Assembly (NCBI RefSeq): GCF_002019635.1
Contig: NZ_KV917372.1
Span: forward strand, 1,674,001 to 1,738,000
Direction of reading: 5' to 3'
DNA from: Metabacillus halosaccharovorans
Lineage (GTDB): Bacteria > Bacillota > Bacilli > Bacillales > Bacillaceae
DNA length: 64,000 nucleotides
The position numbers were made by a program, and so were the translations under genes. This document shows positions 10,893 to 16,902 of the stretch, piece after piece. The notes beneath the pieces are model-generated. The model ran no database searches, had not been told where the DNA came from, and saw nothing but the letters and a program-made list of their open reading frames with translations. Each line of letters begins with the position of its first letter. Positions within the stretch are counted from its first letter, which is position 1.

Positions 10893-11125
10893 AAAAAACC
10901 ACATCCCTAAAAAGGGACGTGGTTTTACTATTTCACGCGGTACCACCCTTGTTGAAGAATCATATTCTTCCACTCAATCGTTAACGGTTCAACCGTTCTT
11001 TGCTGCTACTTGCACCAACAAAGAAAGCTCAAGGAATGTAATTCGTGTTATCTATGCATCGATTCACACCAACCATCGACTCTCTGAAAACATTGAGATA
11101 ACGACTACTTCTTTTCCTATCTTCG
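10893..11125 (-). ncRNA. T-box leader, tyrosine-specific, upstream of tyrS
   Basis: The T-box sequence AAGGGTGGTACCGCG lies on the minus strand at 10936-10950. A terminator hairpin (ACCACGTCCC / GGGATGTGGT plus T-run) sits at 10893-10927, just before the tyrS ribosome binding site. The Stem I region contains the AGAGAGTCGATGGTTGG segment, and the specifier loop holds TAC (11038-11040), a tyrosine codon, in the context GAATTACATTCC. Uncharged tRNA-Tyr would stabilise the antiterminator. The 5' boundary is approximate. Confidence 0.93.
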
Positions 11126-11136
11126 CCTTTACATTA

Positions 11137-16001: not shown

Positions 16002-16151
16002 ATGAAGGTTGGTGATGTGGTTTTTTATGAATCAAAACTTTACAGAATCGTCCACATTTACGATAGTGGATATTGCGAAATTAAGAAAGAGGATAGTATT
16101 TATGAGGTTATGTTGGTTAAGATGTCAGAGCTGTGTGTTCCTAATATTTGA
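16002..16151 (+). CDS. 49-residue hypothetical protein
   Basis: A small open frame starts with ATG nine bases after AAAGAGGG and ends with TGA at 16149. The product is compact and beta-rich: MKVGDVVFYESKLYRIVHIY, then a charged turn and VMLVKMSELCVPNI, with two cysteines. The KVGDVV...LYRIVHIYDSG pattern resembles small Bacillus hypothetical proteins that look like single SH3/KOW-like barrels (from memory, no named family). It is transcribed alone and divergently from the AraC operon. The good ribosome binding site and coding-like composition support a real gene. Confidence 0.65.
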   Translation: MKVGDVVFYESKLYRIVHIYDSGYCEIKKEDSIYEVMLVKMSELCVPNI

Positions 16152-16220
16152 ATCAACTATTTAAAGAGAGACGGTCAAAAAACATCAGTCCCTTATTAGA
16201 AACTGATGCTTAGTTTGGAT

Positions 16221-16649
16221 TTACAACCCGATTTGACGATTTTCTTCTTCCAAAAATTGCTGAAATGTATTTAATATTCGAGTAGGATGAGTACTGAGTA
16301 GTTCAATATAATGACGTTGGCGATGACGATCTAGTACTCTGCTTTTTTCTACTCTTTCCTTCATATATGCAATGCTAACTTTATGAATTTCCTTTGCGGA
16401 ATATCTGACTTCTTTTTGAAAAGCAAATCCTAAAGCCCCTACGACAGCAAATATAAGTGTAGATATGAACATTTCTCGGCTCCAAGGAGTGAAGAAAATT
16501 AAGCTAAGTAAATTCACAATTGAGATTGGGATAATGAGAATAGCTAAAAACGAATATTTTCTCGTTTTCTTCATAATAGGTAGTGTTAATTTTTGAATTT
16601 CTTCTATTTCTCTTTCCACATATCGGGGTATATTTGTAAACATCTTCAA
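16221..16649 (-). CDS. Two-helix membrane protein under Mn riboswitch (possibly DUF5392/YwnF-like)
   Basis: 142-residue protein from the TTG at 16649, seven bases after GGGAGG. A longer in-frame reading to 16775 would translate the riboswitch, so it is rejected. The product starts MKMFTNIPRYVEREIEEIQK, has two adjacent hydrophobic helices (FLAILIIPISIVNLLSLIFF and MFISTLIFAVVGALGFAF) and ends in a charged helical tail ending EEENRQIGL. Size and layout recall YwnF-type DUF5392 proteins, but that is a tentative match. A manganese-sensing riboswitch with its own promoter lies directly upstream, so synthesis should rise with Mn2+. A role in manganese efflux or tolerance is inference from this control. 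Confidence 0.75.
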   Translation of the reverse strand: MKMFTNIPRYVEREIEEIQKLTLPIMKKTRKYSFLAILIIPISIVNLLSLIFFTPWSREMFISTLIFAVVGALGFAFQKEVRYSAKEIHKVSIAYMKERVEKSRVLDRHRQRHYIELLSTHPTRILNTFQQFLEEENRQIGL

Positions 16650-16670
16650 CTGTATTCCTCCCTTTGAAAA

Positions 16671-16747
16671 TGAAAATGGCCTATACACTTGGTATAGGCC
16701 ATTTTCATGTATACAAATAGACCTATACCAAGTTGGTTGGTAAGGTC
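16671..16747 (-). promoter_or_regulatory. Expression platform of Mn riboswitch: three competing hairpins
   Basis: A 16-bp terminator-like stem, TGAAAATGGCCTATAC (16671-16686) with GTATAGGCCATTTTCA (16692-16707), stands just before the ribosome binding site. The segment at 16722-16733 can pair over 12 bp with 16687-16698 and break that stem. The same segment is otherwise held in a hairpin at 16720-16747 (GACCT, TACCAA / TTGGTA, AGGTC with one bulge) that also consumes the 3' strand of the aptamer P1 helix. With Mn2+ bound, P1 forms, the antiterminator segment is freed and the gene is on. The pairing is seen directly; the on-direction is inferred. Confidence 0.8.
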
Positions 16748-16831
16748 TCGCTAACAACATTTTTGTTGCCAACAAAGCCGAGAGTTTAATACTCCGTAAT
16801 GACGACTTTGCTGTAAAAGCTACTCCCCTTA
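16741..16831 (-). ncRNA. yybP-ykoY manganese riboswitch aptamer
   Basis: The minus-strand RNA contains the hallmark 5' segment AAGGGGAGUAGC, the loop AAAGUCGUCAUUACGG, the strand CGGCUUUGUUGGCAACA and the 3' hallmark AGCGAGACCUUACC. P1 pairs UAAGG (16827-16831) with CCUUA (16741-16745). This agrees closely with the yybP-ykoY class, known to bind Mn2+ and usually found before MntP, TerC-like proteins or P-type ATPases. Here it precedes a small two-helix membrane protein. Confidence 0.95.
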
Positions 16832-16873
16832 AAAAGGATGTATTAATTAGTTAAACTATTGAACTATATATTT

Positions 16874-16902
16874 ATTTTATATTATTATTAGATATTGGTC
16901 AA
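16874..16902 (-). promoter_or_regulatory. SigA promoter of the riboswitch transcript
   Basis: Minus-strand TTGACC and TAAAAT are separated by exactly 17 bases. The predicted transcription start lies about 35 bases upstream of the aptamer. Confidence 0.75.

Follow-up and report, generated by a model that had tools for sequence, protein, structure and literature searches.

A manganese riboswitch of variant build and its probable target, a DUF5392 membrane protein gene, in Metabacillus halosaccharovorans

A 64,000-nucleotide stretch of the Metabacillus halosaccharovorans genome (contig NZ_KV917372.1, positions 1,674,001 to 1,738,000; hereafter the window) carries on its minus strand one self-contained transcription unit (16902-16175) consisting of a promoter, a yybP-ykoY aptamer, a three-hairpin expression platform, a 142-codon gene and a terminator. 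The best overall explanation, to which we assign a probability of roughly 80%, is that a Mn2+-activated transcriptional riboswitch controls a single membrane protein gene of the family DUF5392. Mn2+-responsive control of the gene is very probable, and the exact switching scheme, whose order of events we infer, is likely. The riboswitch is of a known kind, in a variant build, and its target looks new.

The Rfam model of the class, RF00080, matches the leader at 16753-16840 (minus strand) with 28.2 bits and E = 4.3e-6 over 361 nucleotides, in agreement with the aptamer call made in an earlier sequence-only reading of this DNA. When 67 kilobases are searched the same match has E = 8e-4, which is significant, although the score does not reach the curated gathering value of 45. 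When the whole window was scanned with Rfam at gathering thresholds, no Mn riboswitch was reported, and a first RF00080 pass over the organism's own genome missed this copy; a search aimed at the leader and a model built from relatives brought it up. A covariance model built from relatives plus this sequence gives the aptamer a partly circular score of 108.8 bits at 16738-16836. All core residues of the class are present. In an alignment of 26 aptamers, taken from the window's genome and from relatives and including the window copy, the L1 (GGAGUA) and L3 (GUCGUCA) motifs are invariant, and 13 of 28 pairs show a pair-keeping change on both sides. The Mn2+-coordinating adenosine is invariant in solved yybP-ykoY structures and corresponds to A16800 here (PMC6754395), and Mn2+ is the presumed ligand of the window aptamer.

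This aptamer has no P2 arm, which plausibly explains its RF00080 score. In all 31 readable DUF5392-linked aptamers P2 is replaced by a 12-nucleotide spacer. The arm is variable and not class-defining, since 38 of 61 TerC-linked aptamers in a wider census (described below) also do without it. P2 was absent from every readable DUF5392-, FbpB-, Spo0M- and kinase-linked aptamer, and present in 23 of the 61 TerC-linked and 5 of 6 Na_Ca_ex-linked ones. Scans with RF00080 may undercount P2-less copies; the DUF5392-linked ones tested fell below the gathering threshold.

Conservation of the aptamer-gene pair in relatives, which the sequence-only reading had set as a check on its proposal, is found across 11 families. 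We searched 397 genomes drawn from the order and 199 drawn from the phylum, and detected DUF5392 in 96 of the 397 Bacillales genomes and in no further genome among the 199 of the phylum draw. Upstream regions of nearly all DUF5392 loci were compared. Of about 100 loci, 33 have the aptamer ahead of the gene in the same orientation (family groups f1, f2, f4, f7, f14, f18, f20, f22, f30, f37 and f44), including 30 of the 96 DUF5392-bearing genomes of the order draw; the chance expectation is about 0.02, at 2.4 aptamers per genome. Since many of these loci had served to train the relatives' aptamer model, 20 of them were searched independently with RF00080; 10 gave matches at E < 0.01, in every case in the same position. 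A scan of named genomes with a narrow protein alignment gave 7 loci and pointed to the genus Metabacillus; Metabacillus niabensis, whose protein is 94% identical, was the closest named relative found. The protein tree requires 12 switches of aptamer state, and well-supported branches force at least 5 of them. The pairing therefore arose or vanished more than once and was not simply inherited from one origin. The new element is this repeated assignment of the DUF5392 membrane family to the Mn2+ regulon, its priority being uncertain: a literature search found no paper on the pairing, though a mention in the 2015 ligand and target papers of the class cannot be excluded.

The leader folds 8.1 standard deviations better than shuffled sequences. 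All three mutually exclusive hairpins proposed earlier were found, neighbouring ones sharing strands (Table 1): hairpin 1 can form only with P1 open, the P1 3' strand overlapping it at 16747-16737 in an arrangement that appears common to relatives, and strand 3 (16700-16688) is complementary to strand 4 (16686-16672). The leader terminator hairpin shows a compensatory change in one Metabacillus relative (L007). Antiterminator complementarity exceeds that of shuffles in about 16 DUF5392 loci, the window included. In most of these a strand 2 base that is bulged in hairpin 1 pairs with strand 3 in the antiterminator, as U-A, C-G, A-U or G-U depending on the lineage. Because the bulged base stays complementary to strand 3 across lineages, a relay between the two strands is supported. 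Hairpin 1 is apparently the sole, aptamer-overlapping terminator in about 12 DUF5392 relatives, and in others both hairpins look like serial terminators. Homologues of hairpin 1 in relatives bear U tracts and the window's clade has none (AUUUGUAUAC); it is probably an ancestral terminator whose U tract has decayed here. With that tract lost, termination falls to hairpin 2 (the leader terminator), and the switch then needs the relay from strand 2 to strand 3.

In L. lactis, Mn2+ stabilises the P1.1 switch helix and thereby blocks a terminator on the same strand (PMC11087558). Carried over to the window, this mechanism makes the platform an on-switch. Without Mn2+, strand 1 (16747-16737, the P1 3' strand) would be free to pair with 16731-16720 as hairpin 1, which would occupy the antiterminator strand, allow the terminator at 16707-16671 to form and end transcription before the gene. 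Mn2+ bound at A16800 would let P1 keep its 3' strand; the freed 16732-16720 would then pair with 16700-16688, the terminator would not form and DUF5392 would be expressed. The on-switch logic of the sequence-only reading fits the leader sequence and draws support from the relatives. The relay, by which the first of two tandem terminators can disarm the second through its 3' arm, also occurs at other Mn aptamers (53 of 115, before many gene families), and the idea that it is special to DUF5392 was rejected. It looks like a general platform of these bacteria, and may be an expression platform not described before.

Several observations weigh against the explanation as a whole. The aptamer scores below the RF00080 gathering value, as do all of the DUF5392 loci that matched independently, and these were only half of those run. 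About two-thirds of DUF5392 genes have no aptamer, and MntR boxes are not enriched before these genes relative to shuffles (nor are Fur or sigma-B motifs commoner there than in shuffles; PerR gave one match). Antiterminator pairing is weak in a further Metabacillus relative (L008), and the relay pattern could come partly from terminator duplication. A thermodynamic comparison of the unliganded states puts the off state 15 kcal/mol ahead of the on state, so the switching decision must be kinetic.

Duplication could also be taken further, making the second hairpin a back-up terminator and the antiterminator pairing a by-product without a role. The 5' arm of the second hairpin does resemble that of the first in many relatives (CCUUUACC), as duplication would give, and in the dozen or so loci mentioned above hairpin 1 appears to suffice; however, in the window's clade termination must fall to hairpin 2, which something has to undo in the presence of Mn2+, and the bulged base has stayed complementary to strand 3. 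We regard this account as unlikely. Far less credible is an aptamer that has decayed or senses another metal, leaving the gene outside Mn2+ control: the sub-threshold score would suit it, as would the binding of Co2+, Cd2+ and Ni2+ by the class (PMC11477304), but the L1/L3 core is kept in all 26 aligned aptamers, the window copy among them, and the TerC-linked aptamers of the same genome have the same core, one of them scoring above the gathering value.

The signals that frame the unit are summarised in Table 1. The promoter claimed by the sequence-only reading matches the consensus at 10 of 12 positions, and three Metabacillus relatives (L006-L008) retain the spacer and the -10 box; transcription is inferred to start near 16867. 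It begins about 25 nucleotides past the stop codon of a LacI-type regulator gene. Promoter-like sites number 5 against 3.9 expected, so the promoter alone is not above chance. The start codon assigned earlier, TTG at 16649, is supported because L008 carries ATG at that position; an alternative longer frame of 184 codons would run translation through the aptamer. With an intrinsic terminator at 16211-16175, the unit is monocistronic. A plus-strand open reading frame at 16003-16151 (ATG, about 49 codons, MKVGDVVFYESKLYRIVHIYDS...) is convergent with the DUF5392 gene, and the Rfam scan of the window reported a T-box leader (RF00230) on the minus strand at 10910-11132 with 135.6 bits.

Table 1. 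Features of the DUF5392 transcription unit, in window coordinates
Feature	Position	Strand	Details
Sigma-A type promoter	16874-16902	-	TTGACC (16902-16897), 17 nucleotides, TAAAAT (16879-16874)
yybP-ykoY (Mn2+) aptamer without P2 arm	16738-16836	-	RF00080, model of relatives, core residues
Aptamer P1 strands	16831-16827 and 16745-16741	-	
Aptamer L1 loop	16828-16819	-	GGGGAGUAGC
Mn2+-sensing A of the aptamer	16800	-	assigned by comparison with structures (PMC6754395)
Hairpin 1	16719-16748	-	-13.0 kcal/mol; aptamer 3' strand 16747-16737 with 16731-16720
Antiterminator	16688-16732	-	-20.3 kcal/mol; 16732-16720 with 16700-16688, 13 pairs
Leader terminator	16665-16707	-	hairpin 16707-16671, -23.0 kcal/mol, tail UUUUCAUUUUC
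Ribosome binding site	16657-16662	-	GGGAGG, 7 nucleotides before TTG; kept in L006 and L007, GAGGAGG in L008
DUF5392 protein (PF17370)	16221-16649	-	142 codons from TTG; two transmembrane helices and a cytoplasmic helical bundle (predicted)
Intrinsic terminator behind the DUF5392 gene	16175-16211	-	-16.3 kcal/mol, z -5.3

The gene product had been described as an uncharacterised two-helix protein of 142 residues. Its size and its two membrane helices hold, but it is not without a family: the PF17370 profile matches residues 5-138 of 142 with 141.4 bits (E = 2.6e-41, cut-off 25). Pfam gave no other family above cut-off and NCBIfam none, so that neither yielded a TerC or MntP exporter match; a weak Pfam match to DUF2417 (18.6 bits, cut-off 25) was set aside as transmembrane similarity. 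We take B. subtilis YwnF to be a member of DUF5392. In a literature search the family was named in no paper found, and one paper names ywnF together with Bacillus subtilis.

An AlphaFold2 prediction built on 70 relatives (predicted local distance difference test score 92) places helices at residues 9-53, 58-101, 108-120 and 122-141. The first two, of about 45 residues each, span the membrane with their facing ends and the two shorter ones are cytoplasmic; the positive-inside rule puts both termini on the inner side. Conservation is strong at P24, K28, N46, G74, A76, E80, R99, S103, Y114, P122, F129, F132, L133 and E136, of which P24, E80 and E136 are invariant, and most of these positions are cytoplasmic or border the membrane. 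Helix register suggests that E80 faces K28 and E14 faces R99, which could form salt bridges. The alignment contains no conserved His, Cys or Asp metal-ligand set and no conserved acidic residue within the membrane. Sequence and fold searches pointed to no solved structure as a convincing relative: Foldseek returned generic helical matches only (best E 0.54), structure-alignment Z scores did not exceed about 9, which falls inside the quoted helical-bundle range, and sequence matches to protein A repeats extended over only about 25 residues.

Our leading, still tentative proposal, held at a little under even odds, is that DUF5392 acts as a membrane-anchored accessory or adaptor protein for tolerance of excess Mn2+, working through its conserved cytoplasmic helices, and not as an exporter. 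We favour it because of the predicted membrane hairpin and cytoplasmic bundle, the missing metal-ligand set and the lack of a convincing relative among solved structures. Other genes of this riboswitch class would argue for the opposite, DUF5392 being itself a Mn2+ exporter that acts as an oligomer: TerC, a family for which Mn efflux is reported (PMC10550928), makes up 62 of the 131 readable genes behind Bacillales Mn aptamers, and Na_Ca_ex another 6. But the membrane helices of DUF5392 are short, number only two and contain no conserved acidic residue, His or Cys; many of the conserved positions belong to the cytoplasmic helices or lie where membrane and cytoplasm meet; and nothing in Pfam, NCBIfam or the PDB ties the family to a transporter, which leaves export improbable.

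Gene neighbourhoods raise a different possibility. In 16 aptamer-free DUF5392 loci the gene immediately before DUF5392, in the same orientation and 15-86 nucleotides away, encodes a RelA_SpoT (PF04607) small alarmone ((p)ppGpp) synthetase, and at L117 (1300-2500) the order is Mn aptamer, DUF5392 and then a RelA_SpoT synthetase gene overlapping the DUF5392 end. In five further aptamer-free loci (L047, L090, L091, L103 and L106) a Zn_peptidase_2 (PF04298) gene ends 44-52 nucleotides upstream of DUF5392. Since most DUF5392 genes are aptamer-free and many stand beside a synthetase, the role of the family may exceed manganese. DUF5392 could then be a membrane partner of alarmone synthetases, with Mn2+ excess as one input to (p)ppGpp or envelope-stress signalling. 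The 16 adjoining synthetases and the gene order at L117 speak for such a partnership, but the window's unit is monocistronic with no synthetase adjoining, none was detected within 1.5 kilobases in 32 of 33 aptamer-bearing DUF5392 loci, and adjacency alone is no proof of interaction; we think it unlikely. More doubtful again is the specific idea that DUF5392 couples Mn status to alarmone signalling at the membrane, through the riboswitch in some Bacillales and through apparent co-transcription with the synthetase in others. If true, the alarmone-synthetase link would tie the stringent response to an excess of metal.

The observation made in the sequence-only reading is confirmed, and its interpretation stands to the extent that computation can judge it. 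Its suggestion of a candidate Mn2+ homeostasis protein is reasonable, with the caveats that the DUF was already known, that nothing suggests an exporter and that about two-thirds of the family go without an aptamer. DUF5392 is likely a new player in bacterial handling of excess manganese. By showing when the protein is called for, the riboswitch gives a family without a described function a testable role, and DUF5392 adds a probable non-transporter to the targets of Mn2+ riboswitches.

The model of relatives finds five aptamers in the window's genome; the four besides the one treated here stand before two TerC genes, a kinase-like gene, and a pair of FbpB-like and Spo0M-like genes. The pair (L004/L121, G000:C1:2335338-2335646) consists of a 47-codon FbpB-like open reading frame and a 129-codon Spo0M-like gene behind the aptamer. 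The protein-kinase-like gene behind its aptamer (L003:622-1582) has a Pkinase score of 23 bits, below cut-off, and kinase-like genes follow aptamers in four other census loci. The census (L120-L253) drew on 61 Bacillales genomes, in which 131 genes following Mn aptamers were readable: in addition to TerC and Na_Ca_ex, it contained 16 FbpB-like small basic proteins (PF13040), 9 Spo0M-like, 5 kinase-like, 3 DUF6376 and, by eye, 3 CNNM-type. The FbpB-like, Spo0M-like and kinase-like genes suggest that the Mn2+ riboswitch regulon of Bacillales is wider than exporters.

Set beside known systems, the protein has a precedent for a non-exporter role in B. subtilis YqgC (DUF456), a small membrane protein that affects Mn tolerance and was not shown to be an exporter; YqgC differs in belonging to another family and in lying in an operon with sodA, and the paper mentions no riboswitch (PMC11332163). 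TerC proteins (MeeY/MeeF) and MntP offer a second comparison. B. subtilis meeY lies behind a Mn-responsive riboswitch (PMC10550928), and both it and two TerC genes of the window's genome follow the same riboswitch class as DUF5392, whereas these multi-helix membrane proteins have no Pfam-detectable relation to it. With the yybP-ykoY examples of L. lactis and X. oryzae, the window riboswitch has in common the L1/L3 core, the Mn2+-sensing A, a P1 whose 3' strand also serves a terminator-like hairpin, and a probable on-switch logic. Unlike them, it lacks P2 and would form a three-way rather than a four-way junction, it adds a second terminator and an antiterminator made from the 3' arm of the first hairpin, and its target is DUF5392.
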